Shown here in pieces: positions 3,426-64,000 of a DNA stretch of 64,000 bases. Source of the stretch: Adenophora triphylla var. japonica (Eukaryota > Streptophyta > Magnoliopsida > Asterales > Campanulaceae); the NCBI GenBank assembly GCA_022495995.1, contig JAFEMH010002592.1, positions 248,001 through 312,000 on the forward strand, read 5' to 3'. Below the pieces are notes generated by a model, which saw only the letters and a program-made list of their open reading frames with translations, searched no databases and was not told where the DNA came from. Each line of letters begins with the position of its first letter. Within the stretch, counting starts at the first letter, position 1. The position numbers were made by a program, and so were the translations under genes.

Positions 3426-4498
3426 TGTGAATACCCCGTCCCGATGCAACGCGCATTCGGAAGTTTCAAATAATTAATCATGAAAATGTTGGACCGAAAT
3501 GGGATATTTATCTAGTGACACTCGCTTTAAACCATATTAAAATATTAGTTTAAATTTTGAGAGTCGCCACGCCACTTTGATATAGCCCAAAGCTTTGAAA
3601 AAAGGCTAAACAGTTAATTGGGTTCGGGGGTCAAGTTACAACAGAAGAAGAAACGCTATCACTCCTATTGCCCGACGGATCGGTCTTTCTAACATATGGG
3701 GTGTTGGTTGTGTGCGGTGTTTACAGGAATAGATAGAAGAAACGGGATCATGCATAAGGAGGAGGGGAGAGAAAGAATTAATTGATGATCACACCCTAGA
3801 ACCTTTGAGTTAGGCCCTCGGAAGGCGCACTAATCAACGTTCATCCTTGGGGGATTGTTGATCATGGGATAATTATAACTAAGGTGGAAGGAAAGAAATA
3901 GTTCCTAGATCCATTGGGTTTCTTAGGGCGAAACCTTAGATCATCCTCGGCTATGAACAATTAAATATATTAAAACAACCCTAAATCTAGCATATATGGC
4001 ATAAGCAAGAGATAAAGCAATTAAAATATACTAAGCATGCAAACAATAATAATAAAGACAATAATAAAGAACAAGAATATTAAAAAGAGAGTCTTACCAA
4101 TTGTAGCAAGACTTGGGGGTCGAATCTTGGCGATCCGAGAGGAAAAAGAAGAACTATGGGTAAAGCAAGTGTGGTCTCGCTTCTCCCGGAGAAAATTGTG
4201 TGTGAATATGGGGAGCCGGGCACCCCTATTTATAATACCTCGGAACTTGGGCTGGGCCTCTAAAGGGTCGATCGGCTCTAGGACAGAAGGGTCGATCGGC
4301 TCTAAATAAAAGGGTCGATCGGCCAATGCACGGGCAAAGGGCCGATCGGCTCTTCCAACTGGCGTCCTTTCCAAGCTGACAGCGACGGCGCAGTACGGAA
4401 GAATTAATGAATTAGGGTTTTTAGGGTTTCCCTAGGGTTTCTTATATATTAACCGGGCCAAGCATTTAAAATGCCTTTTTTCGGACCGGGTACTAACA
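3426..4498 (-). repeat. 3' LTR of the Tat element
   Basis: A 1073-bp LTR, TG...CA bounded, nearly identical to 18636-19707. In element orientation it carries four YCGATCGGC palindromes (cores at 4269, 4293, 4316, 4343) followed by a TATA box (minus-strand TATAAATA, plus 4227-4234). The purine-rich GCCGAGGGGCTAC on the minus strand immediately before it (about 4499-4511) is a plausible polypurine tract. The short frames inside both LTRs are not genes. Confidence 0.92.
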
Positions 4499-4786
4499 GT
4501 AGCCCCTCGGCGACGCTTCTTGTAAGACAAGTGGGGTCGACGATAAAAGAATAGGGTCCGTCCTGAAAAAAGGGATTTCAGGAGGTAAGAAGAGTGATCT
4601 TGCGGATGCAAGGGATTGGACTCGAGCTGAGTCGCAAAAGGATGACCAGATAGGTCAAGTGGCTGAACCCACGTCGGGCTACCTACGTATCCCAAAAAGG
4701 AATCAAGCCAAGTCGTAGTTCAAAAGAGTGGGCGTTTTTAATACCCGAGAATGGCGGATGTGTGGCGTCAAGGATACGTGACTGCA

Positions 4787-5010
4787 CGGGAGTCACCAAA
4801 AGATTTGACTGTCCGGGGAGTCACCCAAAGATTTGACTGTCCGGGGAGTCACCCAAAGATTTGACTGTACGGGGAGTCACCCAAAGATTTGACTGTACGG
4901 GGAGTCACCCAAAGATTTGACTGTCCGGGGAGTCACCCAAAGATTTGACTGTCCGGGGAGTCACCCAAAGATTTGACTGTACGGGGAGTCACCCAAAGAT
5001 TTGATAATTT
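4787..5010. repeat. 28-bp tandem repeat in the Tat 3' region
   Basis: Seven well-conserved 28-bp units start with GGGGAGTCACCC at 4815, 4843, 4871, 4899, 4927, 4955 and 4983, preceded by one degenerate unit. Units differ mainly by C/A in TGTCC versus TGTAC. The repeat lies between the antisense ORFs and the 3' LTR. Tandem repeats at this location are frequent in Tat/Ogre elements and can seed satellites. There are no unique spacers, so it is not a CRISPR array. Confidence 0.9.
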
Positions 5011-5282
5011 TGACTTCTGCGGGAGTTACCCCGAAAAAATATTAATCTAAAAAAGTTTGGAATTATGAAATGAATTAAAAAAAGAGGTTTTATTTTAAAA
5101 AGGGGTTTTAAAAAACGGTTGTATTTTGGAAAATGGGGGAATTTTTGAAAATGGGGGATTTGTTTTGGGGAAGGGGAAAAGTTTTTTGAAAAAGGGGAGA
5201 GTTCCTCGGGAAGGAGGAGAAATTAAATCAACCGGTCAAATTACTCTGCCCGAGGAGGACACGCGTCAGGCCTAGAGACTGA

Positions 5283-5440
5283 AGGGCCGATCGGCCCTAT
5301 GCTCTGATTGGCTGGGGCCTTTTGACGAGGATCGGGGTCACCAGGAGGAATCCTGGCCGTTCGATCAGGCGGAAGAAGCACAAAAATGGGAGGGCCGATC
5401 GGCCCTTGACTCCCATTGGCTGAAAAAGCGGCCGATCGGC
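5283..5440 (+). promoter_or_regulatory. Palindrome cluster upstream of antisense ORF 1
   Basis: Two perfect 16-bp palindromes AGGGCCGATCGGCCCT (5283-5298 and 5391-5406) and a third, GGCCGATCGGCC (about 5430-5441), lie 130-290 bp before the antisense ORF start at 5571. Inverted CCAAT boxes (ATTGGCTG) occur near 5307 and 5415. The same core is in the element's LTR promoter and before antisense ORF 2. No clear TATA box was seen here; the 5455-5520 leader is CT-rich. Promoter function is inferred from recurrence and position. Confidence 0.55.
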
Positions 5441-5570
5441 CTTAAGAACGTGCCGTCTTCTTCTCCAACTCACTTTCTTCTTCTTTCTCTGAAACTTCTT
5501 CCTTCGCCGAGTTTCTTGAAGATTTTCGCCGAGTTCACTTGATTTTGTGCCGAGATTTTTTGCTTTTGCC

Positions 5571-7948
5571 ATGGATCCCGACGTCGCAGCTTTGGAACGA
5601 TTGCTCAATCAACCGGATTATTCACCGCTGGGCTCATACACCGGAGGTATAGGCGGTTTTCATGGTTATGGGGGAGAAGTTGGAGCTAGTGGTTATGGCG
5701 CCGGGGGTAGCCGTAGTTCTGGCAGTTTTAGGGGTGGTTTTGGTGATATGGGTGGTGGTTTTGGTGGTATGGCTGGTGGTTTTGGAGGTGCTGGCATGGC
5801 GGCAGTGGTGGCGGTTATGGTGGTGCTGGCGGCGGCAGCCATGGTGGTGATGGCGGTGGGTATGGCGGCAACGGTGGTGGCCATGGCGGGAATGATGGTG
5901 GTGATGATGATGAAGAGGAGGTGGATGTTGATGCCGGGGAGAGTGACCGGAGTGACGCCGGCGGGAATGCCGAGGCTAGGAGGCGGCGAGCTTCGCGTAA
6001 CTATCGACCTTCGAGGCTGTTCGTTCTGTTGCACAATCAGGCGGACTTTTATGCGGGCCTGAATTTTCATGGATCCACTGGTCTCCGATCCCGCGTCGGG
6101 ATGAAGGTACAATTTTTATTTAACAACATAATAATTGATACATGTGCAAAGTATATTTTTTTTTATTTAAAATGCGAGTAATGACACATACCTGTGCTGT
6201 GTTTACCTGCAGATGAAGAAGATGAAGGGACGTAGTTCCCTTAAGGCGGTTGGTGAGCTATGGGCGCTTTTGCCAGCCGGTGAGGGTGGTCCTCGCGAGA
6301 TGGTGTGGAACTTGGGGTTGGGCCCCTTCTTTGATATGGTTGCACCGACGGGTCGACCCTAAGTGTAATGCGGTGGTGAAGGTGTGTCGTGAGTTCCGTG
6401 GGACACGACACATACTTTCCATCCGAGTTGGGGTGAGACTACGATCACTCCTACCGACTTTGCCGTCCTCACCGGCCGAGGTTTACGGATGTAGTGTTGC
6501 CTTTTGACGAGACTTTACATTCCGACAAGGCTCGTCGATTCACTATTCGGTGCTAGCGTTGGCCCGAGCAGAATTTCGGTGTTGACGCAGTGGAAGCCGT
6601 ACAAGCTTGTGGAGACTGCTATCGATCGATACAGAGTCTGGCCAAGCATGGGATGGACGCACTTGTCCGGGGATTCCTCCGGTACGGCTTATCAGCCGGC
6701 CCTCTTTTCCCAACTCGGGCCCTGTGCCGATTCTCTTTATTGGGCGCCTTGTCCGATTTGGACTTAGTGCGATACATTTCTTGGGGAGGGGCCGGCTGGC
6801 CGAGCCGAGCTGCACGGCCCTCGACACCTGTCTCGAGGTCCAACACCTCTTCTTTCGCTGCTTTCCACTTTGTCTTGGAGGTATGCTTAACTCTTGTCAT
6901 TCTCACTACCTCTTACTTGTTACCTTGTCTTTCCGTTTTTTGTGCCTATCTGCTTTTCTGTCTTTCGCAGGCTTGGGTTTATGAGATTTTCGGCGTTGCG
7001 CCGTTCACCTTACGGGACCAGACTCGGGATGTGCCCGTCTTGCGGGACTGGAGGAAGGAAAACCGGGTTGAGGGGTATCCGAAGACAAGCTCGCGAATCC
7101 GATTTGAGGGCCGTGTTTGATGGTCCCAAGAGACTCCGAGCTTTACTCTTCCCTCGACCCCCGAGGCTTCGAGGCCGTTAGTGCCGTTCGGGATGTTACC
7201 GCTTCCCGCAGACCGCCGGGTTGGATTGCTTGCCGACGAGATGTATCTCGGGCGAGCGGGTGTCGAGACAAAGACCATGCGTGGGCTCCACTTTATGCGC
7301 CACAGCATCCTCCCAAGAATATGTGGTATCCGGACCGACTGCCGAGGAGGATGGAGTACCTGTATGGGGTCCCCGCTCATCACTTTCGCCTTGACATGCC
7401 GTACGTAGATTTTGTATCTCTTTATCTGAGATCACCACAGGTGGTGCGGCGGGCTGCTGCGGAGGCCTGTGCCGCCGGTATGGGGAGCAGGATCCGGTTA
7501 TTCCTGAGCAGATGGGTGCTCCACCTCCCGAGATAGTAGATATGCCTCCCTTTCCTGATCACTTCTATGTGCACATGGCTGACGGGGAGGTGCGAGTAGA
7601 CTTGACACCCACAGAGGCTGACGAGGTCGAGGGTGCTCATCTTCCTCCCGGTGGCGCTGGCGGGGTATGCCTTTTACCTTTCCTCTTTATATACTGGTAC
7701 TTATACTTTAGCTGTGATGTAACTCTCGCCCTTTGATTTTTCAGGTCACTCGGGAGTCTTATGTGCGGTCGGTGAGGCACGAATGTGCCGACCCGTCGTC
7801 GAGGAGTGCCGTGGCGGCGCTTTCTTGCCAATCCCGGAGATCGGTAGATGTGGATCCAAGACAAGGAGACAACAGCTCCCAGGGTGAGGGTAGCTCGACA
7901 TCTGGATTTTCTCGCGGCCGTGCCTCGACTTCCCGTAGGGGTCATTAG
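5571..7948 (+). pseudogene. Antisense ORF 1 of the Tat element (plant-mobile-domain-like, four exons)
   Basis: Opposite in strand to gag-pol. Four exons are inferred from GT-AG boundaries: 5571-6106, 6213-6880, 6971-7664 and 7745-7948 (stop TAG). The protein starts MDPDVAALERLLNQPDYS, has a glycine-rich stretch (about 5640-5890) and an acidic segment. The body carries ITPTDFAVLTG and AWVYEIFGVAPF, resembling the plant mobile domain found in accessory ORFs of Tat elements and in MAIL1-type proteins. The C-terminus is Ser/Arg-rich. Frameshifts occur near 5800 and 6430-6450 and in exon 3, so this copy is not intact. Function unknown; a DNA- or chromatin-associated role is speculation. Confidence 0.7.
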
Positions 7949-8301
7949 GATTTTTTTATTTTTATGTAGTACCTGTAGGGAAAAAAGTAGGAGCATGCAG
8001 ACTCTAGATTTTATGCTGTCTCACTGATGTATGCGACTGATTTATGTACTAGTTTATGGATTTAATATATAAAAGTTAGTCTTTCTGTTTATGTACATTT
8101 CTATTTTTGGATGTTATCTATTTTTGTACACTGACAAAATGAGGACAAATCAAAATAAAATAAAATAAAGTAAAAATTGAAAATAGAAAATAATAATAAT
8201 AAAGAATAAAGATAAAAAATAAAATAAAAGAACAAAAGGAGGGGCCTTGGGATCTGTAAAAGCTGCTGAAGTTGAGCCGTCTTCTGGAGAGACCAAAGGG
8301 T
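7949..8301. other. Spacer between the two antisense ORFs
   Basis: No gene is visible. The first part is a plausible 3'UTR for antisense ORF 1. Positions 8150-8240 are a run of AATAAAATAAAG-type A-rich sequence that could supply polyadenylation signals. Frames on the opposite strand here are low-complexity shadows. Confidence 0.5.
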
Positions 8302-8476
8302 CGATCGGCCCAATATTAAAGGTCCGATCGGCCCAATATTAAAGGTCCGATCGGCCCTACGCTGAAAAGGCGGCGGTTGTGATTCTGAATGATGGGCCGA
8401 TCGGCCTTCCTTTTCCTGCACGGATTTCTTTACTGTCCTTTTCCTGCACGGATTTTGACACCAAAACCTATATAAA
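8302..8476 (+). promoter_or_regulatory. Palindrome cluster plus TATA box of antisense ORF 2
   Basis: Four CGATCGGCC palindromes have cores at 8302-8307, 8325-8330, 8348-8353 and 8398-8403. The first three are spaced exactly 23 bp and two lie in repeated CCCAATATTAAAGGTC units. A TATA box TATATAAA is at 8469-8476, 66 bp beyond the last palindrome, and the ATG is at 8574. This repeats the order seen in the LTR (palindromes, TATA, start), suggesting an autonomous promoter on the strand opposite gag-pol. Confidence 0.65.
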
Positions 8477-8573
8477 CCCTTTGTCAGCCGTCGGGTACCA
8501 CACACAATTTCTTTTCTCTCTTCTTTGTACTGTTCTTCTGCTCCCTTTTTTTGCCGTGGACATTAACATAATA

Positions 8574-9963
8574 ATGAATTCTCATCCCTCTGTCTTGATG
8601 GAGAAGCAAAATAATTTTGAGAGTGATTTGGCCGTTTGGGTATCCAAAGTACCTCGTTCTGTTCGTCATGTCTTTGACAAACGTTTTGGGGTAAAGTGTA
8701 TTTGGTCCCTTTTGCCTATGCATCCCAATTGGAATCTCTTACATGCTGCTGCTGCTTTTTGGGATGAATCTAATCACGTCTTCAACTTCTCTTACAACGA
8801 GGTTACACCCACCTACGAGGATTTTCTTGCTCTGTGTGGAGGGGATGATGTCAGTTTGATAGCGGTTCCACAGGATAGAGTTCCGTTGGTGACAAGGGTG
8901 GCCAAATTTCTGCACCTCCCTACAAACTGGCTAGAGGTTTGGTTGAAGGTGTAGACATAGATATCTGTGATTTGCCGGGGAGATTTGCTCATGGTGATGA
9001 CTTCGACTCGGATTTTGCCTTGGATTGCCTGGCTCTCTGCTTATTTTCCAAGGTTTTGTTTTCTCCTTATGTGGGTGTAGCTACCAGTGGATGTTTGGAT
9101 ATGGTTGATCAGGCCCGTTCTGGGAGGAGCATCATTCCGGTTCTCTTGGGCGAGACGCTTCATGGTATATCTCAGATAGCTAGGGTGCTCCGCTTATGAC
9201 TAGGGCGTGCCAAATTACCGACCACGTGGCTCGAGGATCGACTTTTTGTTCTAGAGATTCCCCTTCGAGTGTTAGGCCTTGGTTTCATGGTTGTAGGAGG
9301 AAGATTGATCCGCTTCCGCTTGTCGAACGGGAGTGGAAGATGTATTTGGCGGAGGTGGATACCGATAGGATTCATCGGAGAGTACAAAGATTGGGGCCTC
9401 TCCTTCATTCTGAGCCTTCACTTGGGCAATGCCCGATTCGTGGTACTGCCTGAGACCACCACCTTTTACTATGCAGAGCGGGTACTTCGGCAATATGGCA
9501 TGGAGCAGGTCCGTCCTCCAACTTGGGGCACTTCGAGTTTGATGATTCTCGCCAAAGTCCTTCCAACGGACGCTGGTGTTTCGCTTTGATGGTAAGCTTA
9601 CGGGGTTCTCATGGGATGCCACGAGCCTATCTTGCGCAGCGGACCCTTAGCACTCATTTGGCGCATGCTTATTTGACATGGTATGAAGAAAACTTGGGAC
9701 CGATGAGGGAGACTTTCTATGACTTGAGACGGAGATTGGTTCCTAACATATCTTCGAGCCGTTTTCTCAGAGACAAGGAGGCTTTGGGGATTTCTCTAGA
9801 CACAGTGGAGGAGAATCCTCCCAAGAGGATGGAGCGGAAGTTGAAGGGTAAGGCGATCGAGGATGTTCCCCCATTGAAGAAGAAGTATCCGCCTTATTTT
9901 AAGAGAGAGAGTAAGAAGAAACCGACTCGACGAGCTGTCAAGAAGAAGAAGGATCTGAGATGA
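8574..9963 (+). pseudogene. Antisense ORF 2 of the Tat element (DUF7745-like)
   Basis: Starts MNSHPSVLMEKQNNFESD. Near residues 57-85 it has LLHAAAAFWDESNHVF followed by VTPTYEDFLALCGG, matching the LxxAxxFWD...F...TPTxEEY pattern of the plant DUF7745 family, typical of accessory ORFs in gypsy elements. The frame shifts near 8935, 9185-9260 and 9450. The last part (about 9520-9963) reads to a lysine/arginine-rich tail ending KKKKDLR, a likely nuclear-localisation region. The family's function is unknown. This copy is disrupted but recognisable along its whole length. Confidence 0.65.
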
Positions 9964-18634: not shown

Positions 18635-18635
18635 T

Positions 18636-19707
18636 GTGAATACCCCGTCCCGATGCAACGCGCATTCGGAAGTTTCAAATAATTAATCATGAAAATGTTG
18701 GACCGAAATGGGATATTCATCTAGTGACACTCGCTTTAAACCATATTAAAATATTAGTTTAAATTTTGAGAGTCGCCACGCCACTTTGATATAGCCCAAA
18801 GCTTTGAAAAAAAAGCTAAACAGTTAATTGGGTTCGGGGGTCAAGTTACAACAAGAAGAAACGCTTATCACTCCTATTGCCCGACGGATCGGTCTTTCTA
18901 GCATATGGGATGTTGGTTGTGTGCGGTGTTTACAGGAATAGATAGAAGAAACGGGATCATGCATAAGGAGGAGGGGAGAGAAAGAATTAATTGATGATCA
19001 CACCCTAGAACCTTTGAGTTAGGCCCTCGGAAGGCGCACTAATCAACGTTCATCCTTGGGGGATTGTTGATCATGGGATAATTATAACTAAGGTGGAAGG
19101 AAAGAAATAGTTCCTAGATCCATTGGGTTTCTTAGGGCGAAACCTTAGATCATCCTCGGCTATGAACAATTAAATATATTAAAACAACCCTAAATCTAGC
19201 ATATATGGCATAAGCAAGAGATAAAGCAATTAAAATATACTAAGCATGCAAACAATAATAATAAAGACAATAATAAAGAACAAGAATATTAAAAAGAGAG
19301 TCTTACCAATTGTAGCAAGACTTGGGGGTCGAATCTTGGCGATTCGAGAGGAAAAAGAAGAACTATGGGTAAAGCAAGTGTGGTCTCGCTTCTCCCGGAG
19401 AAAATTGTGTGTGAATATGGGGAGCCGGGCACCCCTATTTATAATACCTCGGAACTTGGGCTGGGCCTCTAAAGGGTCGATCGGCTCTAGGACAGAAGGG
19501 TCGATCGGCTCTAAATAAAAGGGTCGATCGGCCAATGCACGGGCAAAGGGCCGATCGGCTCTTCCAACTGGCGTCCTTTCCAAGCTGACAGCGACGGCGC
19601 AGTACGGAAGAATTAATGAATTAGGGTTTTTAGGGTTTCCCTAGGGTTTCTTATATATTAACCGGGCCAAGCATTTAAAATGCCTTTTTTCGGACCGGGT
19701 ACTAACA
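18636..19707 (-). repeat. 5' LTR of the Tat element
   Basis: A 1072-bp LTR nearly identical to 3426-4498; differences noted by eye are five transitions and three small indels. TG...CA bounded; TSD ATAGG directly outside at 19708-19712. As the 5' LTR in minus orientation it should drive the genomic RNA. Confidence 0.92.
19436..19557 (-). promoter_or_regulatory. U3 promoter with palindrome array (Tat 5' LTR)
   Basis: In minus orientation, four CGATCG-cored palindromes (19552-19557, 19525-19530, 19502-19507, 19478-19483) precede a TATA box TATAAATA (plus 19436-19443) by about 35-115 bp. The best copy reads GGCCGATCGGCT-like with GCCGATCGGC core. The same array is in the 3' LTR and, in the opposite direction, before both antisense ORFs. 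TATA placement supports U3 identity; the role of the palindromes is inferred. Confidence 0.65.
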
Positions 19708-19820
19708 ATAGGCGGCGTTTGATGTATGAAAAATAGCACTCCATCCGTCTCTGTAGTAAGTATGATAAATGTCATTTTGGTAAGGAGGGAATGTTATCTC
19801 TAAATTTTAGTAACACTCAT

Positions 19821-31817: not shown

Positions 31818-33086
31818 TCACTGATGGGGCGGACCAAAATGATGGTCCCATGGACCTGGCTGGCTCGAACTCTCATCCCCTTGATGCTGTTGTTGCCACT
31901 CCATATGATGCGGGTCATGGTGGTGGGGGGAATACTGGCCATGGGGGGAATAATGTGGCGGAGGGGGTAGTCTCTCCATCACCAAGTGCATCATCCGCCT
32001 CTGCTCCTCCCTAAATGCCTGAGCATGTTCAATCTCGTTGTCAAGCTTCCCTTCTATTCTCTCTCTCCACAAGTGGTTGGTCTCAAACTCTGCTTCAACT
32101 CTGGTCTGAAGCTGCCCAACCTCCGTTTTCAGCCCTCTCATGTTCTCCTCAATCATCTCCACTTGCCCCGCCAAATAATACGTTGCCTCGGTAGGGTCCA
32201 TATTGTGTAGTTCCACCTCTTCTTCATCATCAACCCCATGGTCTATCTGTGGCCCTGCCCTAGCACGATTGAAGCTCGTGAGAGTGAACTTATCAATCTT
32301 CGAACCTGGCTTCAAATTACGGATTTCCCCTCTTATATTTAGCCCTGCCATTTTCGCCAACTCCGTGATAAGAATAGGAAAGTTGTAGTTTGACCTTCCC
32401 ATGTTGTTGGCCAATCTAATAATCTCATGTCTGATGATCAAGCCTGTGTTGATTCTCTTTCTCGAAATTACCACATGCATCAATGCATCCCTTCTCCAGC
32501 TAACATCCCCATAGTGGGATGAGGGCATGATCCGCTCACATATAAATCGGTGCAGAATGGCTAACTCCTTACTCAAAAATCTCATCTTCATTATGTTCCC
32601 TTTCTTATACCAGTAGGATCAATATCTACCCCAAGTGTGACCGAGAATAATGGGAGGTGGCCCAAGATATCCTCCTTTGTTTTCATCTCCCCCACCAACG
32701 TCTGATATGCACAATCTCCCTCCTATACATTAGCGGGCATGCTATAGTATCTGTTGATCACCGTGCTAGTATATGGGACTTCCAACCCACGCACATAGGA
32801 GTTGGGTGTATCACCTCTAGCACAAACATTAGCATAAAACTCCTGAACAATTCTATTCAATCCCCAAGTGCGCGAGTTCGAAGCAAGCATTTTCCATTTA
32901 TAAAAAGTGAATCTCCTTCAAATTACAGCTTGCCCAATCAAATTCCCTTTCTACGTTGAATGCATTAGCATGATGATCATTAAAAAATTTATCCGCTTTT
33001 TCGAAAACAAACCTATGTTGGTCAAATTGGGGTTCTTCCACAACCGGGGGAGGGGGAACATTTTTATCTCTACCCCTTTTACCCAT
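31818..33086 (-). pseudogene. Athila accessory ORF (plant transposon-protein domain)
   Basis: Downstream of gag-pro on the same strand. 33086-32898 starts MGKRGRDKNVPPPPVVEE and continues FDQHRFVFEKADKF. After a disrupted stretch (about 32600-32890) the frame 32591-31818 carries KRINTGLIIRHEIIRLANN...FPILITELAKMAGL, resembling the putative plant transposon protein family (PF20167-like) found in Athila-type ORFs. An acidic stretch, a coiled-coil-like segment (EMIEENMRGLKTEVGQLQTR) and a His/Pro/Gln-rich tail follow. Function unknown. It has its own candidate promoter at 33497-33744. Confidence 0.6.
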
Positions 33087-33496: not shown

Positions 33497-33744
33497 GGGT
33501 TTTATAATAATACGATTTTTGTTTCCAAAACCACCCAGGAATATGGCTGCATGACATTGGGAGCGGACGCTCCCCTACCCTGGGAGCGGACGCTCCCCTT
33601 CGACAGAAACTATGGGTGATGTTGGCCAAGTTGGGAGCGGACGCTCCCCCCTTTTGGGAGCGGACGCTCCCTATTTCCAGCAACTTTCATCGCTTTGAAC
33701 AAATTGAGAGCAAGGGCTCCCCCGCTTTTGGAGTAGACGCTCCC
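33497..33744 (-). promoter_or_regulatory. Palindrome array and TATA box before the Athila accessory ORF
   Basis: Four perfect copies of GGGAGCGGACGCTCCC (33559-33574, 33582-33597, 33633-33648, 33656-33671) and two decayed copies (about 33705-33721, 33730-33744). Each has 7-bp arms around GA. On the minus strand the array is followed after about 55 bp by TATAAAACCC (plus 33497-33506) and after about 410 bp by the ORF start. A CT-rich leader (plus 33428-33475 GA-rich) lies between. This is the same layout as in the Tat element, with an unrelated palindrome. Confidence 0.6.
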
Positions 33745-36669: not shown

Positions 36670-36674
36670 AAATT

Positions 36675-38132
36675 TGATAGGCTAAAGTCGCACGCCTACA
36701 AATTAAATACCAAAACTCGGCTACAAAACTGTAGAAAGGACAAGTCCAGGGTCGATCCACTGAAAAACGATTATTTATTTGCACAATTGTCACTTGACAA
36801 GATTGGGGGTCTAAAATTGATTTTAATTAATTCCTAAGACGGGAATAAAAAATTAGGTTTTAGACAGTTAAAGGAAACACTTTGGATCAATTATTTTCCC
36901 CGTCTATCATTCAAATATCATTGGTTAACTCTTTTTCACTTTTACCCTATTCACTCGATCACGAGATTTATTTCAATCTCTATCTCTTTCTTTAATAATA
37001 GCTAATAGCAATGACACATTCACTAATAACCCTAATCAATACCTAAACCTAACTGACACAGTCTAGATTCACAATATCAATTGATTTCGATTTAAGAGAT
37101 TAAGATCGAGAACACGTTCTAATGCTATTTCAATTAGATACTTGTCTATTTTCTTCATATTCACAATTTATCATGACACATGCATAAACCATAAATTTGC
37201 TACTTTTGAAACCCTAAATTGACACAATCTTAGGGGATTCTAGCAATGAATTAAGATCCAAGATTAATCAATTGGCCTAATTGAAAAACCCTAGAAATCA
37301 AATCAATCAATTAAAACAGAAGAAAATATGAATAGGACAAAATAGATGAAAAGAAATTAACCTCAATTGAATTCAAGACGGTTTCAATAATCGAATCCAA
37401 AGCAAGAAATTTAGTTCTCCATAAAAAGCTATGAACTCTCTAGCTCTAGGGAAAAATAATAATAAAAAGTCGAACCCTAAAACTATTGTTAAGAGAAGTA
37501 TATATACTCCTCCTAAAACTTAAAACTAAAAGAAAAATAAAAAGTACTTTCCTAAGTCCCTCTCATATATGCCAGGAAGGAAAAGAAAATAAAGAAAGAT
37601 TTTTCAAGTCAACTTCACGGTCAACCAAGGTGAAAGTCGTGGTACGATTCGTGCGAAAAAAATCAATCGTGCTGTATTAGAACACGACTCGTGCTTCATG
37701 TAACTAGTCGGGCCATTTGCTGCCAAACCAACTTCTAGCTTTCACTTTGGTCACTATTCTCGTGGTACGATTCGTGCGAAAAAAAATCAATCGTGCTGTA
37801 TTAGAACACGACTCGTGCTTCATGTAACTAGTCGTGCCATTTGCTGCCAAACCAACTTCTAGCTTTTCACTTTGGTCACTATTCTTTCCAGCTTTGCAGT
37901 TTAGTCCCTCAAGTTTCCAGAATTGCAGATTAGCTCCTGAACTTTATATTTCCAGCTTACTTTCCAATTTTTCATAATTGCAGTTTGGTCCCTGGATTAC
38001 AATAAAATCTCACTAACTCCTCTCAATAGATATTTCACTCAAATTACATCAAATCTATACTAAATACATGGACATTGAATATAAAATGAACGGAAAACAT
38101 AGAAATTACATAGTATGAAATACGCCACATCA
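36675..38132 (-). repeat. Right (5') LTR of the Athila element
   Basis: 1458 bp, TGATAGG...CACATCA. It differs from the left LTR mainly by a 123-bp tandem duplication (37638-37760 and 37761-37883) that doubles the GCACGA/CACGAGTCGTG palindrome region. It holds the empty hAT site at 37421-37428. As the 5' LTR of a minus element it lies head-to-head with the transporter gene starting at 38482. Confidence 0.92.
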
Positions 38133-38137
38133 GAATC

Positions 38138-38481
38138 CCATATCCATTTCTAGTTGACTTAGTCAAAGTGAAGCCAACAACAATATTTAACTGAATAAAA
38201 CACAAATAGTAACTGTAAAATAATCCAAAAAAAAAAAAAGAACTGCATATCAAATTTAAAGACATTATTCCATTCAAAACCAGACAAAATTATTCCCGCA
38301 AAAGTTAGTTTAACTGTAAAAACAGACTTCTAACTTTGTGAAAGATGTGAGTTTAGGGTCTAAAGGCCAGTCAACCCAAGTTCCCTACCAATAAATCCTT
38401 GCTCCATCTATATCTATATATAGAAAAGCATAATCTGATAGATACGAAAACTGAAAAACACACAATACACGCACACAGAGA
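38138..38481 (+). promoter_or_regulatory. Proximal promoter of transporter gene 1
   Basis: 344 bp between the Athila element and the start codon. CTATATATAG at 38414-38423 is the best TATA box, about 60 bp before the ATG. An A run lies near 38229. The retrotransposon's 5' LTR sits immediately upstream in divergent orientation, so it may influence expression. Confidence 0.55.
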
Positions 38482-41008: not shown

Positions 41009-41485
41009 TGATACAGGAGCGAGAGCGACCGCGCTCAAGGGGGTGCGCGACCGCGCTCAAGACGGTGTCAACCAGGCAGCAGTTTCGGCCAAGGTGCGCG
41101 ACCGCGCACGGGAGGAGAGCGACCGCGCTGAAGACGAGGAAGAACTGGCGTGAGCCTCGGCCAAGGTGCGCGACCGCGCTGGGCCTAAGGGCGGCCGCGC
41201 TCGAGACGGAGGATTGAAGACTGATTCCTTTTTAATTACGGAAAAACTCTTAATTTTGGCATTTTATTTATTTTGGGAACTCTTTTATTTGCTGCCTAGG
41301 TAGAAGTATAAATACTTAGTCTTTTATTTTTGGAGAACAACTTATTCATTATTGATTTCCAATTCAAAGAGGTTTTCTCTTTAATTTTAAGTAGATTCCA
41401 GATTTGTGTTCTTGAGGATTCATTGCTTGTGAATTCTTGTGTTTAGTGCGCTAAACACGAATCGTATTGCTTCCGTGCTGCGTCA
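41009..41485 (+). repeat. 5' LTR of the chromovirus element
   Basis: 477 bp. Differs from 50984-51461 essentially only in a short cluster near 41390 (TTTTAAGTAGATTCC versus TTTTCTGGTGGATTCC). TATAAATA lies at 41307-41314. Confidence 0.92.
41020..41314 (+). promoter_or_regulatory. LTR promoter with GCGACCGCGC palindrome array
   Basis: Five copies of a GCGACCGCGC core plus one GCGGCCGCGC variant lie within 41020-41205. The most symmetric is GTGCGCGACCGCGCAC (7-bp arms, 2-bp centre); others are GAGCGACCGCGCTC-like. TATAAATA follows at 41307-41314, about 100 bp beyond the last copy. The same array is repeated in the 3' LTR (50992-51182), where it is also translated. Confidence 0.65.
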
Positions 41486-48132: not shown

Positions 48133-51128
48133 GGTGTTGTTCAACTGGAGCAAGCACAAGATTGCTATAGCTCCTGTTTCGCGGTTTGAAAAGCCAGTTG
48201 AGAAGGATAAGCCGGTGTTGATGCTTATTCAGAATGAGAAGGATCTTGCCGCAGCTATTGAGGAGTCGGAGTATTTTTGCCCTATAGTCATTAAGGGGTT
48301 GTTGGGTTCTGTCAGTGTGGAGATTGGGTTGCCAAGGGACATTGAAGAACTACTTGCAGATTTTCAGGGGTTGCTATCCGAAGAATTGCCAAATGATCTA
48401 CCACCTATGAGGGACATTCAGCATCAGATTGACTTGATTCCGGGAGCTAGCTTGCCAAACCTTCCACATTATCGCATGAGTCCTAAGGAGAATGAGATAC
48501 TTCGAGAGCAGATTGAGGACTTGCTGCGAAAGGGGTTTATTAGGGAGAGCATGAGTCCGTGTGCAGTGCCGGTTTTGCTTGTGCCAAAGAAGGGTAATCA
48601 GTGGCGTATGTGTGTGGACAGCCGGGCCATCAACAAAATTACCATCAAGTATCGATTTCCTATTCCCCGTTTGGAAGATATGCTTGATGAGTTATGCAGG
48701 TCGAGAGTGTTCACGAAGCTGGATTTGCGCGGCGGGTACCATCAGGTCGGATTAGGCCAGGAGATGAGTGGAAAACAGCCTTCAAGAGCAAGGATGGCCT
48801 TTATGAGTGGCTTGTCATGCCATTCGGACTCTCGAATGCCCCTAGCACTTTCATGCGGTTGATGAATCAGGTATTCCGACCTTTTATTGGTTCTTTTGTT
48901 GTCGTTTATTTCGATGATATCCTGATTTATAGTAGAGATAGAACTGCACATCTCGATCATCTTAGGCAAGTATTGCAAGTCCTAAAAGATAATCAGCTCT
49001 ACATCAATCTTAAGAAGTGTATTTTCTGCACCAACAAGTTACTTTTTCTGGGTTTTGTGGTTGGTGAGGATGGTATTCAGGTGGATGAGGAGAAAGTGAG
49101 GGCCATTAGAGATTGGCCAGCCCCAACTTCTGTCACTGAGGTGCGTAGCTTTCATGGCTTAGCTACCTTCTATAGGAGGTTTGTTCGGAATTTCAGTACC
49201 ATCACTGCTCCTATTACTGAGTGTTTGAAGAAGGGTAAGTTTCATTGGGGTTTCGAGCAAGAACAGAGTTTTGCCCTCATTAAGGAAAAACTTTGTACTG
49301 CACCAGTTCTTGCCCTACCCGACTTTGATAAAATCTTTCAGGTGGAATGTGATGCTAGTGGTGTAGGGATTGGAGCTGTCCTATCACAAGAGAAGCGACC
49401 TGTGGCTTTCTTTAGTGAGAAGTTGAGTGAGGCGCGTCAGAAGTGGAGTACTTATGACCAGGAATTCTATGCTGTTTTTCGGGCCTTGCGACAGTGGGAG
49501 CATTATCTTGTTCAGAGGGAATTTATTTTATTTTCTGATCATCTTGCCCTCAAGTTCTTGCACAGTCAGAAGGTGATAAACAAGATGCATGCTCGATGGG
49601 TGAGTTATCTGCAGAAGTTTCCTTTCATAATCCAACATAAGTCCGGGGTTCAGAACAAAGTGGCAGACGCTCTGAGTAGGAGGGCTTCCTTATTACTTAC
49701 ACTGTCTCAGGAAGTCGTCGGGTTTGAGTTGCTGAAGGAGTTATATGGGGAAGATCCGGATTTCAAGGAACTATGGTTTAAGTGTGTGGGCAAGCACCCG
49801 AGTGCAGATTTTCATGTCCGTGATGGTTTTCTGTTCAAAGGAGACCGATTGTGCATTCCTGTGACGTCATTACGTGAGAAGCTGATCCGAGACTTGCATG
49901 GGGGAGGCCTTAGTGGACACTTGGGGCGTGACAAGACAATCGCTAGCTTGGAGGAGCGTTATTTCTGGCCTCAACTGCGGAAGGATGCGGGTGCTATCGT
50001 CAGGCGTTGTTATGTTTGTCAGGTATCTAAAGGTCAATCTCAAAATACTGGTCTTTATTTGCCTTTGCCTATTCCTGATGATATATGGCTCGATTTATCT
50101 ATGGATTTTGTGTTGGGTTTACCTCGCACTCAACGAGGTGTGGATTCTGTTTTCGTGGTAGTGGATCGATTTTCCAAAATGTCTCATTTTATTGCTTGCA
50201 AGAAGACCTCGGATGCTTCTAATATTGCAAAATTGTTCTTTCGAGAGGTGGTACGTCTTCATGGTGTTCCTAAGTCCATTACTTCAGATAGGGACACTAA
50301 GTTTTTGAGCCATTTTTGGGTGACATTATGGCGTATGTTTGGTACTGCGTTGAATAGAAGTTCTACAGCTCATCCACAGACGGACGGACGGGCGAGGTTA
50401 CAAACAGGACATTGGGAAACATGATCGAAGTGTTTGTGGGGACAAGCCGAAGCAAAGTGGATTTGGCATTACCGCAGTGGAGTTTGCTTACAACGGTGCA
50501 GTCCATTCGGCTACGGGTAAATCACCATTTTCTGTAGTCTATTCGTCGACGCCAAGGCATGTTGTAGATTTGGTACCTTTACCAAGGGGTCGTGGTGTGA
50601 GCCAAGCAGCTGAAAATATGGCCAATGAAGTATGTGCTGTCAAAGAAGAGGTTCGGGCCAAATTGGAGGCAACGGGAGTAAAGAATAAAGGCTGCTGAGA
50701 CAAGAAGAAACGGGTCAAAGTTTTCAAGGTTGGGGATGATGTTATGGTTTTCCTTCGACGAGAGCGTTTTCCCTGTTAGCACGTACAAGAAATTGCAACC
50801 TCGCAAGTATGGGCCTTTCAAGGTGACTCGGAAGATTAATGACAATGCATATGTGGTGGCTCTTCCTGATAATTTGAACATCTCGAATACTTTCAACGTG
50901 GCGGACATATATGAGTATCATGCGGATGGAGTTCTTTATCCTGATGAGAACTCGGAGTCGAGTTCTTTGGAGGTGGAGGAGACTGATACAGGAGCGAGAG
51001 CGACCGCGCTCAAGGGGGTGCGCGACCGCGCTCAAGACGGTGTCAACCAGGCAGCAGTTTCGGCCAAGGTGCGCGACCGCGCACGGGAGGAGAGCGACCG
51101 CGCTGAAGACGAGGAAGAACTGGCGTGA
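48133..51128 (+). pseudogene. Chromovirus reverse transcriptase, RNase H and integrase
   Basis: The frame resumes [52 protein letters not shown] and catalytic [11 protein letters not shown]. RNase [43 protein letters not shown]. Integrase: zinc-binding H..H and [10 protein letters not shown], then [22 protein letters not shown] and the distal E region. Breaks: one frame change near 48750 (before DEWKTAF), one near 50395 and one near 50690. The C-terminal [15 protein letters not shown] segment runs on into the 3' LTR, stopping at 51126-51128. Confidence 0.92.
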
Positions 51129-51461
51129 GCCTCGGCCAAGGTGCGCGACCGCGCTGGGCCTAAGGGCGGCCGCGCTCGAGACGGAGGATTGAAGACTGAT
51201 TCCTTTTTAATTACGGAAAAACTCTTAATTTTGGCATTTTATTTATTTTGGGAACTCTTTTATTTGCTGCCTAGGTAGAAGTATAAATACTTAGTCTTTT
51301 ATTTTTGGAGAACAACTTATTCATTATTGATTTCCAATTCAAAGAGGTTTTCTCTTTAATTTTCTGGTGGATTCCAGATTTGTGTTCTTGAGGATTCATT
51401 GCTTGTGAATTCTTGTGTTTAGTGCGCTAAACACGAATCGTATTGCTTCCGTGCTGCGTCA
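50984..51461 (+). repeat. 3' LTR of the chromovirus element
   Basis: 478 bp, TGATACAGG...TGCGTCA, followed by TSD AAATA. Carries the same palindrome array and TATA box as the 5' LTR. The first 145 bp are also the end of the pol reading frame, so the array encodes an Arg/Ala/Asp-rich tail with repeated RDRA/DRA. Confidence 0.92.
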
Positions 51462-55190: not shown

Positions 55191-55740
55191 TGTAAGATTT
55201 GGAAAAACTTGATTTGTGTATTCACAAGTAACCAATATATAGTACAATAGGAGGAATCCTATTCTAATACAAAGATTTGAAAATCTAATCTATACAATGA
55301 ATATTTGGTTTCCTAAATTTATGAACTACTGAATATACATTGAATCAAAGTAATATAGATACCCAATGTAATTAGGAAATAACCACGGACTGAGGATGAG
55401 GCGGCTGCTTGGTCCAAACTGAAGCCACGCCTGGAGGACAGAAGAATCAGCCATGGCCTTCATCAGTTGAGGCGAGCGCATGGGAGTTGCCGAGGCTGGC
55501 GCCTGGGAGGTAGTAGCTTCAGCTGAGGTATGTGACTGATGAGGCAGGCGCCTGGGAGTTGCCGAGGCTGGCGCCTCACTGCTTGATACTGGACGATCCT
55601 TGTTATCGTTAATAAAAGTCAGGGTTGATCGTATATCAAAATTGTCATCAAAGAAGAATAGCACATACTTTATATTTTGTTTCTTGATAAGAAAAAAAAG
55701 AAGGTAATTTATGTATATAAAAAAGAGAGACACAGGCATG
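55191..55740 (-). repeat. 5' LTR of the copia element (outer edge uncertain)
   Basis: On plus it begins TGTAAGATTTGG right beside the primer-binding site. In minus orientation a palindromic repeat region (55440-55580, GAGGCTGGCGCCT-type, with a 24-bp block repeated at 55481 and 55553) lies about 200-350 bp upstream of a CTATATATTGG TATA-like box (plus 55229-55243). The partner LTR is missing, so the outer end cannot be fixed. Confidence 0.55.
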
Positions 55741-57256: not shown

Positions 57257-57399
57257 TACATTAAAAGTGAACATTTTTTATAATCGATTTAATCTCAGTC
57301 GATCATAACTTAAAAATATGCTTCAATTAACAACTGATTGCTACTGTTGATTTTATATCGATCACAACAACAGTTTCAGGTTCAGGTTCAGGTTCAACA

Positions 57400-59676: not shown

Positions 59677-62454
59677 TTATCGTGGCTTGAAGAAATTGGC
59701 TTCGATTCCTTGAGTAGCTATAGTCCATATCGCACCAAAAACGAGTAGTACACTTAAGATCATCCCTAAGCAACCTAATAACCAATTGAGGCACCACATT
59801 TTCCCAAATTTCTCGGGTTTCTTGATCACAATCCACATGAAGCAAGGATATGCTAAGGTAATGGGCAATGCAATTCCTCCGATCAATCCTGCCAAGCTTG
59901 GTAAGAATGGGAATGCCACAGATATGAAAAACGCCAAGGCCCCAAAGAAGACACGAAGCATTATTCTTAGCCACCAAGGGCACGGTCCGTTCCTACTACT
60001 TGTGTATCTCATCTCGAGATTATCAAAAACTAGCATTGCGTATATTTGGAAAGATGTTAGGCAGCTTATTACCACGAACAAGCTTGCTAACCCTAGAATT
60101 GATTTTGAGGTGTCTCTTCCATGGTACTTGTATAAGGCACTTAGCATTCCTCCACTTGAAGGTATCTGCAAAATACACCGTTAGCTGAAAATGTGGGCTT
60201 ATTTGTTGTAACCACTACAACCGCAAATTTGCTATTATGCTACTGCAGTGGTCGGGGAGAATTTAGTCACATCCACTTTTTTTGTATCGAGCGGTAGAGT
60301 TTCAATTGACTACTCATGAAGTCAACTTGGTCCCACATATTAACCACTCTGGTCTCAACCGCTCATATAAAAAAATCGTGGGTAAATTCTTTTCAATATG
60401 CTACAGCACAACAACAAATTTGTCGCAACCACAATATTGGGCATGGAAGTATGTATATGATACTTACCAAGTTTCCATAAGTCCAATAACCTGCTATTGC
60501 TAGGGGAAATAAACATAAGGCTATGATCAGATATGAGAATTTCACTCCTCTCCACATAGGCACACTTGATGGATGTTTTAGACTAGAAGGCATTGTTCCC
60601 TGCAGCAGTAAAATAAATTTATGAAATTATATATAGACATTTTTTTTTATAAATACTCGGTAATTTTTTTCCAAAATATCAGCTGCGTCATTTGCACTTC
60701 CTGGTGCCATACTGGATCCGCCCATGCGTACCTGAATTTCGAGCACAAGATTGTGACCTCTAAAAGCAAATGCAATGATCCCAAGGGCATTAAGAACATG
60801 ACAAACCCTAGCCAAATCCGATGACCCCTCATGCAAAGAAGCATACGAGACCTCATCTGGCCGGCCTTTGATAAGAGAAGCCACCCATATAAGAGTACAA
60901 TACGTGACCGCAGTTATTGCACCCATTAAAGAAACTCCGGCAATGGAGTTCAAGTTTGGAAGCTGAGCTAGAAGAATGGCCGAGCAAGTGAACACAAGGT
61001 ACCACTGTACGGATGATAGTGGGGTAGGGTCACCGAAATCATTGCCGGAGACTGTCTGGTAAAAAAGTTTCATTGTTCCTCCTCCGACCATGATTAGGGT
61101 TACGCATGTGCCACCGGAAAGATACATGGTCGGAAGTAGTGCCATCATCTTCCCCAACTTTTCTCCTGCATGCACAAAGAGGAAATGTATTAGTAATTTC
61201 CTTAATACAAAAAAAAAGCTTTTTAATAAAGTTTGATTCCATTTTAGTAGTCAATCGGTCCATGAAGAGTCACATCATCACATGCAACAATTATTTGCAT
61301 ATCTTTTATTCATATACTAAATTAAATCTAAATTAAATGACCATTTTTATTCCAAAATAAATAATAAATATTCCCCCGCTCCACTCGAAATGACACAAAT
61401 TTCGATTTTGGGTGTCCCATTTAAAAAGGCACACTTCCAAAATAAAAACTTTTAAATACTTCTTTATTTGTATGACCCACTTGTTATACTCACAATAACT
61501 ATTTCATATCCTAATTTTTTTTTCCTACATTACTTTTCATACTCACATCATTTACTCCACTATATACTTTCCTTAATTCCCATGCAACACCAAATTTTTG
61601 CCTTTTCGAGCGGGACAAAGTCAGTAATCTTTTGAATTTTACCTTTAAAATTGTCCCTAAATATTTTTTTTTTCATTTTTTATACTTCATTATATTTTTA
61701 CAAAACAAAAACTTTTGAAAGTGAATAGTAACAATATTTATGATTTTTTTTCTATTAAAAATCAACCATTTCAAAATCAAAATGACCCTTAAATTTCAAA
61801 TGATAATTTATTTTGCGACGGAGGAAGTAGTTTTTTGACCAATTGAAGATGAAATTTCATAATAAGAAAGCAAGCATACCAAAGGCAGCCATGGAAAGCC
61901 AAAGATATCGACTGTAGCGCGTCCCGGGGATGGATTCATGGAGTTGAATTAGTAGCCAAAGTGTATATAGTTGCCAAACAAAGGCCAATGACAAACATAT
62001 AATTCCCCAAGCCCTGAAAATAAAATATTCGTAAGCAAATTTGAAATTTTTAGACTCTAATTATAAGACAGAAGTAGTTCATAAGTTTGATAAGGATCAA
62101 AGGTCAAACTTTTTGAGCTATGGAATGGAACATACCAACCAAGAGCAGTGAAAGCAAGAGGAAGGACAAGAGCTTGGAATCCAATTCCGGAGCTGAGCGT
62201 GTGAAATGCAGCGTAAAAAGCATTTCCATGTCGCGACTCCGTGATAGGCAGCCAAGCCTCTTGAGGATTGAGTTTCGTAAATTGACCCATTTCTTCCAAA
62301 TAACCTTGCATGCTAGTAATCACTTTGTTCACCGGGCTAGCCAATGGGGTCATGACACGTGTAATTAACGGGCTTTTAGGTGTTTTAGGAGTCGAAACTA
62401 TAGAAGGTGATTGAAGTTGAAAGGTCGACGGAGTTTCTATATCCACCGCCTCAC

Positions 62455-62458
<4 letters not shown>
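59677..62458 (-). CDS. Lysine/histidine transporter-like 8 (amino-acid permease), copy 2
   Basis: Five exons on minus: 62458-62136, 62013-61880, 61165-60732, 60599-60468 and 60165-59677; 503 residues. Intron positions and phases equal those of copy 1 (38482-40750). Same AAAP transporter fold: N-terminal TPKTPKSP region, EAWLPITESRHGNAFYAAFHTL, NLNSIAGVSLMGA, IAFAFRGHNLVLEIQGTMPSS, MWRGV, AGLIGGIALPITLAYPCFMW and C-terminal EANFFKPR. The N-terminus is shorter than in copy 1 but has an extra VITSMQGYLEEMG segment. Likely a plasma-membrane amino-acid transporter. It faces copy 1 (convergent), so the pair arose by inverted duplication or later inversion. All exons intact. Confidence 0.94.
61369..61628. 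repeat. Possible MITE in transporter 2 intron 2
   Basis: CCCCCGCTCCACTCGAAATG near 61374 is roughly inverted as CCTTTTCGAGCGGGACAAAG near 61600-61620, enclosing AT-rich DNA with CATCATTTACTCC-type Stowaway-like internal sequence. A single Stowaway-like end (GCGACGGAGGAAGTAG) lies further on at about 61816-61831. Boundaries are unsure. Confidence 0.35.
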
Positions 62459-62491
<33 letters not shown>

Positions 62492-62553
62492 ATATGGATG
62501 GTTTGTTATATTGATTTTGTTGTGGAATGAATTAAGGTGAAAGGGTATTTATA
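62459..62553 (-). promoter_or_regulatory. GA microsatellite leader and TATA box of transporter 2
   Basis: A (CT)14-15 run on plus (62459-62487), i.e. (GA)n on the coding strand, ends directly at the ATG (plus CAT 62456-62458). TATAAATA (plus 62546-62553) lies about 90 bp upstream. GA repeats in plant leaders are known binding sites for BPC/GAGA-binding proteins. Copy 1 lacks such a tract. Confidence 0.7.
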
Positions 62554-63404
62554 GAAGGCATATATTGAAGGGGGCGTTTGGGAATTTCATGAATATTCAA
62601 GGGGGTGGAATAAAAGGTAGAAAGTAAAGTTGTATTGAATGGATCTTTGACTATCCACACTTGGCTGCTTCTCTTCAGAAATAAAGTTTTTACGTAAGAG
62701 TAAAAGTGTATTACAAATTGTAAACTCGTTGCTGGCGCATGCAGCTACCTTATAAATTACGTCACCTAACCCCTAATTATTAGCTCCCCGGACCCCGAAT
62801 GTCATACATATAGGGGCCGATCGACCGGCCTCCCCCGAATGTCATGGCAATCTCACCGTCCGTTTGAAATAATTCACTAACTACGAATATTAAAAATATG
62901 GTATATAGTTTTATTTTATTCACTTACTCTCGTCAATAAGGGTAACTAAATTTGAATAGTTGCTGCTGCGATGGGGCAACAAATTTCGACGTTTCTCAAC
63001 AAATAAAGATTATCCTATATCAAATTTACTGCTGCAACGATTTGTGATGTGTTTAAGCCTCGTTCCATTTAAAAAAGAGTCCTAATTCCGTCTAAAAAGA
63101 GGCTAGTGATCATTTTTTATATTTATTTTTATGAAGAAAGACAAGTGATTAATTAATTTAGTTAGCCATCTTTTGTTATTTTTAATTGTTGTTACCCATG
63201 TGACTCTGAATTGACTGTGTTGTGATTATATCCACACGTACGTTGGCCAGATGACCAAATTATGCTCCTCCAATTTGTCCAAATTGGCCACTGCCCTTGC
63301 TCTAAATTTGAACAATTTTAATGACTTCCAAGTCTAATTTTGTTGGTTAAATAAGACAGGTTCTAGCTAGAACCGTTTAGTCGACTCACTTGCAATTGTG
63401 AGAC
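62554..63404. other. Upstream DNA of transporter 2, no gene seen
   Basis: AT-rich 5' flank. Contains GGGGCCGATCGACCGGCC (about 62813-62830), which only partly matches the palindrome of the Tat element. The last five bases, GAGAC (63400-63404), are the predicted left target-site duplication of the LTR element that begins at 63405. Confidence 0.5.
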
Positions 63405-64000
63405 TGATGTAGGAGGGTCCATGAGGAGTACAAATCCAAAACGGGGCGAGAAGGATAAGAGCAAAAGGGGATGGGAGCCAGGCGGACGCCCCACGGACGG
63501 CCAGGCGTGCGCTTCAGAGGGAGGAAAACAAGGCCATCCTCCTGGACGCGAGGCTGGCGCCTCACATCAACCCAGGCGACCGCCTCACTGCGGTTCAACA
63601 CGACGGGAACAAGGCTGGGATCGAGGCTGGCGCCTCGCGAGAACCCAGGCGGGCGACTCACGCTGACGGGAAGTTGCTAATGTTTGTTTGCGTTGTTTTT
63701 ATTGTTGCCGTTTAAAATTAATTAAGAAGGGTATTTTAGTCTTTGTTTTATTATTTCATTTTAGGGTTTTAAGAAAGTATTTAAATACTTTTAGGGCTTG
63801 GTTAAACTTAGTTTTGATATTATTATTTAAAGGGTTTTATCTCTTTTTCTGGTGGATTCCAGTTTATTGTGTTTCTAGGGTTCATCGCTTGTGAACTCTT
63901 GTGTTTAGCGCTTGCTACTCATGAATATTGCTTTCGTGTTGCGTCAGTTGGTATCAGAGCAGGCTTTATCCCGTCTTTCACCGCTGATTCATTATGGGGG
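63405..64000 (+). mobile_element. 5' end of a further LTR retrotransposon (tRNA-Met primed), partial
   Basis: A 542-bp LTR (63405-63946, TGATGTAGGAGG...TTGCGTCA) followed by primer-binding site TGGTATCAGAGCAGG (63949 onward) and leader up to the window end. The LTR end and leader resemble those of the chromovirus element (CTGGTGGATTCCAG, CTTGTGTTTAG, GCGTCAGTTGGTATCAGAGC), so it is a related but distinct family. Coding region lies outside the window. Confidence 0.8.
63485..63788 (+). promoter_or_regulatory. LTR promoter with GAGGCTGGCGCCTC array
   Basis: GAGGCTGGCGCCTC occurs at 63550-63563 and 63623-63636, with related CCAGGCGACCGCCTC (about 63572-63586), CCAGGCGGGCGACTC and AGGCGGACGCCCC nearby. 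TATTTAAATA at 63779-63788 is the TATA-like box, about 150 bp beyond the second perfect copy. Any protein reading through the array is incidental. Confidence 0.6.

Follow-up and report, generated by a model that had tools for sequence, protein, structure and literature searches.

Repeated GC-rich palindromes at LTR and accessory-gene promoters of plant retrotransposons: candidate regulatory cassettes shared across superfamilies

The locus described here bears on how plant long terminal repeat (LTR) retrotransposons are transcribed across superfamilies, and on how their regulation changes under silencing. The locus is a 64-kb window of plant DNA from Adenophora triphylla var. japonica (contig JAFEMH010002592.1, C2592:248001-312000, of a 2.48-Gb assembly), which contains nested LTR elements according to self-comparison. 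An earlier reading made from the letters of the DNA (hereafter the sequence-only reading) had placed clusters of short GC-rich palindromes directly before TATA boxes in seven of the retroelement promoters, and all seven can be located at, or close to, those places. What are these arrays? Based on sequence comparison, we favor with modest confidence the reading that they are cis-regulatory cassettes for retroelement transcription, with dyads bound as dimers by one or several sequence-specific, probably host-encoded, proteins.

The lineage labels Tat, Athila and chromovirus are provisional ones from the sequence-only reading; Pfam domains are consistent with them. The 5' LTR of the Tat element (18635..19711, minus strand; 99.1% identical to the 3' LTR at 3426-4502 by self-comparison) has four CGATCG dyads spaced 24, 23 and 27 bp (19476..19560) with a TATA near 19436, and the 3' LTR has the same array (4267..4351, minus strand). 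One common motif serves the Tat LTR and the promoters of two antisense open reading frames (ORFs) on the plus strand: four CGATCG dyads spaced 23/23/50 (8300..8405; TATA at 8469) stand before ORF2 (8343..8951), and three GGCCGATCGGCC sites (5285..5442), overlooked by the sequence-only reading, stand before ORF1 (5571..6059). The Tat 9-mers have 15 sites in the 64 kb, all 15 within these four arrays. By contrast with Tat, the Athila-like element (minus strand) has different motifs at its LTR and at its internal promoter. The internal-promoter array (33559..33744; TATA near 33497), upstream of an accessory ORF (31818..32591), consists of six GGGAGCGTCCGCTCCC sites, four of them exact, spaced 23/50/23/51/23. 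The 5' LTR (36671..38139, by self-comparison) carries a CACGANTCGTG array (37635-37885) built on a tandemly duplicated 124-bp unit; the duplication of this palindrome-bearing unit (37637-37885) is confined to a single LTR of the pair. The 3' LTR is split by a hAT insertion into 25625-26383 and a U3-side part, 30404-31004. Its array (30624-30712), reported earlier as one of the seven, is present but weaker, with only two ACGANTCGT dyads at 30626-30712 and GTATATATAC at 30481; the strong version lies in the other LTR.

On the plus strand, the two chromovirus LTRs (41009..41485 and 50984..51461; 99.2% identical by self-comparison) carry the same array, which in the first has six sites (41021-41205) spaced 22/51/21/51/21 and a TATA at 41307. 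A partial element, f, contributes an LTR (63408..63947, plus strand) with six sites (63478-63660) spaced 23/48/23/50/23; its internal region lies beyond the window. The array of f is as described, and the "TATA" assigned to it is the TATA-like TATTTAAATA at 63779. Finally, a copia LTR, g, has a AGGCGCCNGCCT array on the minus strand (55468..55578) spaced 23/49/23, with TATATA at 55236-55241 on the same strand.

Are such arrays more frequent than chance would produce? AT-rich palindromes swamp a plain count, so we scanned for repeated GC-rich dyads instead. The plain count of all palindromes was weak (165 versus 132 at score 5.5), and plain palindrome clusters numbered six against a mean of 2.2 and a maximum of 5 in 24 shuffles, two of the six being the Athila array and the Tat ORF1 array. 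Blind scans used an arm of 3 and at least four copies within 250 bp (rule 1) or an arm of 4 and at least three copies (rule 2), with 200 dinucleotide-preserving block shuffles of the 64 kb as the null. The enrichment over shuffled controls expected by the sequence-only reading was found: rule 1 returned 10 clusters (shuffle mean 0.02, maximum 1), and rule 2 returned 10 against 0.00. Five of the ten rule 1 clusters are at positions already reported (Tat LTR, antisense ORF2, Athila ORF, chromovirus LTR and f), three are in partner LTRs of the same families (4269, 37644 and 51000), and the remaining two are a 28-bp tandem repeat (4788-5004) and a miniature inverted-repeat transposable element (MITE; ~19826-20200). 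The rule 2 list adds the copia LTR and the Tat antisense ORF1 array, and two of its ten are other repeats, one at the start of the window and the MITE. A genome sample of 200 kb (20 pieces of 10 kb, contig C1; 20 shuffles) gave 30 clusters where 0.85 were expected by rule 1, and 21 where 0.55 were expected by rule 2. In 264 kb, CG-N2-CG dyads with 4/4 complementary arms numbered 50 versus 2.1 expected (16 shuffles), and CG-Nn-CG dyads with n other than 2 at most 11. In these counts a family can contribute more than one site, and some elements contribute both LTRs.

The arrays have a grammar. Most classes share a CG-NN-CG core with varying arms (GCGNCCGC, TCGGCCGA, CCGATCGG, CCGTACGG). In the main class, with the GCGNCCGC core, doublets 21-23 bp apart form units that repeat every 72-74 bp, and for this one class the earlier statement that spacing and order recur is exact. 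Arrays of the 200-kb sample are spaced similarly: 23/49/23/49/23 in copia L009a and L005, 21/51/19 in L009b and 22/49/21/44/20/22 in L019. The Tat ORF2 array follows the grammar in part. A spacing of about 23/50/23/50/23 is shared by LTRs without other detectable homology; comparison of the LTRs at E up to 0.001 matched them only in R-U5 (chromovirus with f), as homologues (g with L009a) or inside the arrays (L009a with f and with L005). Distances among all CG-NN-CG dyads with complementary arms in the 264 kb peak at 19-24, 49-51, 70-75, 91-96 and 121-126 bp, and the gaps separating these peaks hold few pairs or none; there were 130 sites versus about 47 and 107 pairs versus about 4 in 10 shuffles. 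The spacings given for the Tat and copia LTRs come from other scans, as a loose site threshold adds spurious weak sites in these two. We did not rely on a probability from a spacing template drawn from the same data, and used the distance spectrum and pattern counts.

Genome-wide, GCGGNCGC-N(2-32)-GCGGNCGC has 39,940 + 40,477 = 80,417 matches, against 132 + 139 = 271 for the reversed pattern. Among the first 100 matches listed, which represent 95 distinct places on contigs C1 and C2 because self-complementary cores are listed for both strands, the spacing is 21-23 at 85 of the 95 places where 10-40 had been allowed, and for 29 of 41 neighboring doublets (within 300 bp) the separation is 72-74 bp. 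A second core, TCGGNCGA, gave 17,665 + 17,972 matches versus 196 + 191 reversed. An upstream box, A[GA]YYNCTG, found in 9/40 units versus 0.38 in shuffles, is a lead only, because the pattern was partly drawn from those same units.

Conservation among copies, which the sequence-only reading had required of its arrays, was seen in the copies examined. For the chromovirus LTR we compared 22 copies (2 from the window and 20 of 38 others listed, of 1675 first-look candidates). Divergence was 0.42% in cores, 2.1% in array spacers and 2.0% in R-U5, and CpG loss was 2/396 in cores, 12/264 in the rest of the array and 10/132 in the rest of the LTR (22/396 outside cores). The four Tat LTR sites are present in 22/22 copies (2 plus 20 of 38 others listed, of 2048 candidates) with no change at 40 core positions, while array spacers diverge by 1.9% and the rest by 2.4%. 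In 8 of 11 other Tat elements with both LTRs listed, the ORF1 promoter keeps at least three sites in every copy; the ORF2 promoter keeps four in seven copies and two in one, and its TATA lies 71-74 bp past the last site in all eight. The Athila internal promoter was compared in 21 more divergent copies (the window copy and 20 of 41 others listed; 75-94% identity, gaps counted as differences). Conservation there was 97.9% in the arms, 86% in the center four bases, 80% in spacers and 70-76% outside the array, and exact GGAGC-N4-GCTCC dyads numbered at least four in 19 copies and three in the other two.

Most window arrays are clearly close to a promoter, which falls short of a demonstrated rule. 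A TATA[AT]A no farther than 300 bp away, to one side or the other, accompanies 8/10 window arrays, 7/12 CG-type non-tandem arrays in the 200 kb and 37% of random positions. The earlier claim that the arrays stand upstream of TATA boxes thus holds for LTR and accessory-ORF promoters of the window and weakens elsewhere, where the count is four of eight against the 37% background. A fixed distance to TATA was rejected, since the distance ranges from 20 to about 170 bp while in-array spacing recurs.

Are the motifs private to their families, as had been proposed? Several arrays of the 200-kb sample sit in U3-like DNA, each with its own palindromes: GGTCCGTACGGACC in L002/L008 (L008 also has a reverse transcriptase (RT) and a G-patch farther downstream), TGTCGTSCGACA in L013/L014, a direct-repeat pair (an integrase and then an antisense frame in the DNA between them, L078), AGGCGCCCGCCT in L009a, the homologue of g, GCGCGACCGCGC in the copia LTR pair L009b (Pol_BBD between the LTRs), CTCGGCCGAG in L019 (left unassigned, as each strand has a TATA-like sequence), and GGCACGACTCGTGCC both in L006 and in the direct repeats L016/L017. 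The same palindromes cross superfamilies. GCGCGACCGCGC is common to the chromovirus LTR and the copia pair L009b, and AGGCGNNCGCCT to f and copia g/L009a; GGCACGACTCGTGCC or variants occur in the Athila LTR, in L016/L017 and in the L006 array, which is near a copia-type gag and possibly in the LTR of that element. Shared motifs are also found in a 2.7-kb, apparently non-autonomous copia element. Homologous contexts, in turn, hold different arrays. L106 (six sites of TGGGCGACCGCCCA type) and L006 (six of CACGACTCGTG type) differ in their sites although the flanks match on each side (90.4% over 135 bp and 82.1% over 179 bp), and a 65-bp piece past the last L106 site weakly matches a spacer within the L006 array. 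In the second pair, L111 has five GCGNCCGC sites where L017 has three of the Athila LTR type (class d), and their two flanks are 84.1% identical over 138 bp and 74.6% over 63 bp. Similarly, the chromovirus and f LTRs have R-U5 in common (77-80%) and different arrays. The description of the motifs as family-specific is therefore not sustained. Two further features of these loci may be recorded: a GC-rich inverted-repeat-like stretch (CCGCGGGGGGCTAC...) about 100 bp beyond the palindrome array in both L106 and L006, and CGATCG-containing arrays in related elements (L017:7134-7277 and L019:9046-9313) that have a period of about 36 bp, are not doublets and have no TATA[AT]A within 300 bp.

The two cases of differing arrays at the same place in related elements suggest a common, exchangeable genetic switch, and convergence, the explanation first proposed, accounts for the shared grammar no better than common descent, module exchange or strong constraint. 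A bolder version is that a promoter cassette with strict grammar (dyad doublets 22-23 bp apart, every 72-74 bp) has passed between Ty1/copia, Ty3/gypsy and accessory genes, that arm swaps change the member of a host family that is used, and that families compete over a small palindrome vocabulary; we put this forward tentatively, as somewhat likelier to fail than to hold.

How might such a cassette work? Each dyad would be the binding site for a dimer of some sequence-specific protein, and since the 72-74 bp unit repeat of the main class is close to seven turns of DNA, bound dimers would be held in fixed geometry beside the promoter and could activate transcription of the retroelement. The use of one motif by unrelated superfamilies points to a host protein, or a family of host proteins, as the probable binder. 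As the Tat LTR and the two antisense-ORF promoters share a motif, one factor could co-regulate all three.

A number of observations weigh against this reading. Some concern the arrays themselves: 10/37 cluster rows of the 200-kb sample are plain tandem repeats, dyads with other cores are also raised, most strongly CC-N4-GG (28 versus 3.7), partly at the same sites (for example CCGTACGG), and CpG observed/expected ratios of the arrays are mixed, from 0.51 to 1.75. The grammar is not universal. The Tat LTR, Tat ORF1, L002/L008, L013/L014 and class d do not follow it in full, and class d (CACGACTCGTG) and the two clusters in L102 are built on CG-N3-CG, with three bases separating the CGs. The L102 clusters are all that was found in a further 40 kb (L100-L103), where no CG-N2-CG array occurs. 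The eight arrays sampled elsewhere were picked for variety from the genome pattern list, blind to their flanks; four of them have TATA[AT]A on the expected side at no more than 180 bp, and two have it on the opposite side. Conservation is also less selective than the cores suggest: the chromovirus stretch from array to TATA diverges by 0.46%, as conserved as the cores; at non-CpG positions the gap narrows to 0.9% in cores versus 1.7% in spacers; and CpG loss in the Tat LTR is low everywhere (0/176 in cores, 3/352 elsewhere). Lastly, the copies compared are the closest of large sets, kin by descent and not independent, and the genome-wide counts mirror family copies, not independent origins.

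The alternative that survives best is that the arrays are an entry point for host silencing, where host factors or small interfering RNAs (siRNAs) recognize them and start RNA-directed DNA methylation, so that a change of array is an escape. We consider this unlikely. Homologous flanks with different arrays would suit it, as would the finding that sequence-recognizing REM factors recruit Pol IV complexes in Arabidopsis (PMC12270911). Some doublets also fold well as RNA, with z of -5.1 and -3.6 for the Athila array and of -5.8 and -5.9 for Tat, but those of the chromovirus show little or no advantage over shuffled sequence (z of -1.9 and -0.2), and a pure host target should decay, yet successful copies keep the sites while spacers diverge.

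Less probable again is element-encoded anti-silencing or self-regulation as in VANDAL elements and their VANC proteins, in which an accessory protein binds the array of its own family, protecting the element from methylation or controlling LTR and accessory gene together. The Tat element speaks for this model, with one motif at the LTR and both antisense-ORF promoters, kept in 8/8 and (as four sites) 7/8 copies. Antisense ORFs of Retand/Tat elements, which likewise lie between pol and the 3' LTR, may have a regulatory role and have been proposed as DNA-binding regulators (PMC11963269); promoter palindromes are not described in the available part of that paper, whereas here LTR and antisense-ORF promoters share one motif. 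VANC motifs, like the present arrays, are dense, family-linked and non-coding, and expand and turn over through repeat formation (PMC5735166). The parallel with VANC drawn by the sequence-only reading is nevertheless loose. VANC21 motifs are AT-rich (YAGTATTAY), in one orientation, in a DNA transposon and bound by an element-encoded protein (PMC5735166), whereas motifs common to copia and gypsy elements suggest a host-encoded binder here. Restriction of a motif largely to one family, a VANC/VANDAL trait, fails here, with the same motifs in copia, gypsy and the 2.7-kb copia element that appears non-autonomous. In addition, the Athila-like element uses two motifs, at LTR and internal promoter, and none of the open frames compared with Pfam matched a known DNA-binding domain.

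Selection for RNA or single-strand structure (genomic-RNA hairpins, packaging or reverse transcription) is quite improbable. Adjacent palindromes can pair, with z of -3.35 for a 16-mer and -3.6 to -5.9 for Athila and Tat stretches. However, the five arm pairs of the six Athila sites contain no double compensatory change in the 21 copies, so the bases appear to be kept rather than the pairing, and such base conservation without compensation favors sequence-specific protein binding over structure. The central pair of the Athila dyads is complementary in 0/125 cells. With compensatory change absent and the two chromovirus doublets tested folding weakly, an RNA hairpin is disfavored as the main selected feature. 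Functionless, neutral tandem-repeat expansion is the least credible explanation and very improbable: the arrays resemble old triplications of a 73-bp unit and one LTR has a recent 124-bp duplication, but the sites persist while intervening spacers diverge, and LTRs without other similarity have spacing and core in common.

A clear precedent for arrays of this kind is provided by the repeated motif (RM) boxes of Sireviruses (Bousios et al. 2010, BMC Genomics 11:89; PMC2829016). RM boxes are CpG-rich palindromes that recur in clusters on the upstream side of the LTR TATA; further copies precede an additional gene (ENV there), the arms vary between elements, and several low-homology elements have nearly identical boxes (PMC2829016). 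Likewise, in the window LTRs a palindromic box is repeated upstream of TATA (in f, of a TATA-like sequence only), and extra boxes precede additional genes, namely Tat antisense ORF1, ORF2 and the Athila accessory ORF. The RM core is CGG-CCG with varied spacing, whereas the cores here are CG-NN-CG or CG-N3-CG and one class keeps 22-23/72-74 bp genome-wide; RM boxes were deemed Sirevirus-specific and absent from classic copia elements by the authors (PMC2829016). Carriers here include Ty3/gypsy as well as copia elements, and the chromovirus has RT, RNase H and integrase in Ty3/gypsy order, unlike Sireviruses, which are Ty1/copia. A later paper reportedly deals with palindromes and siRNAs in maize Sirevirus LTRs. 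If true, the reading of the arrays as regulatory cassettes would extend the Sirevirus box phenomenon to Ty3/gypsy and other copia elements. The plastic CpG islands of Del chromoviruses, proposed as a moving target for silencing, resemble the arrays as variable CpG-rich stretches in the 5' half of LTRs; the eudicot Del elements studied there had no island, and "palindrom" is absent from the main text of that paper (PMC4029996). No description of the present arrays was found in the literature searched (gypsy LTR/U3 palindromes, 73-bp repeats, motif strings), a coverage with subscription papers outside it. The countable grammar, the 80,417 matches and the natural pairs with differing arrays in homologous flanks make the proposal directly testable, the pairs being natural experiments.

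As to the carrier elements, by Pfam the Tat element has RVT_1 and gag, the Athila-like element gag and protease, and the chromovirus gag, RT, RNase H and integrase; close to the copia LTR there is an integrase together with a retroviral SH3-like domain. The Tat antisense ORFs lie between pol and the 3' LTR, their frames opposite to the RT (12671-13687); ORF1 has no Pfam match, and ORF2 is an open frame with a weak DUF7745 match under the Pfam cut-off. The Athila-like accessory ORF, downstream of the internal-promoter array, matches PF20167 (Transposase_32). On its R-U5 side, the f LTR is similar to the chromovirus LTR. The hAT transposon inside the Athila-like 3' LTR (26383-30404) has a weak BED finger, a hAT RNase-H fold and dimerization domains at 27509-29753. 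The element at ~19826-20200, which we take from its hAT-like ends to be a hAT-like MITE, is enriched in CCGG-type subterminal repeats and was caught by the blind dyad scan; the 28-bp tandem repeat, with 7.8 copies, lies between the Tat 3' LTR and antisense ORF1. Beside the copia LTR, a 1.5-kb stretch (55780-57257) is bounded by inverted repeats of about 237 bp that are 95% identical. Two Aa_trans (amino-acid transporter) gene fragments lie on opposite strands at 39316-39843 and 60630-61175.

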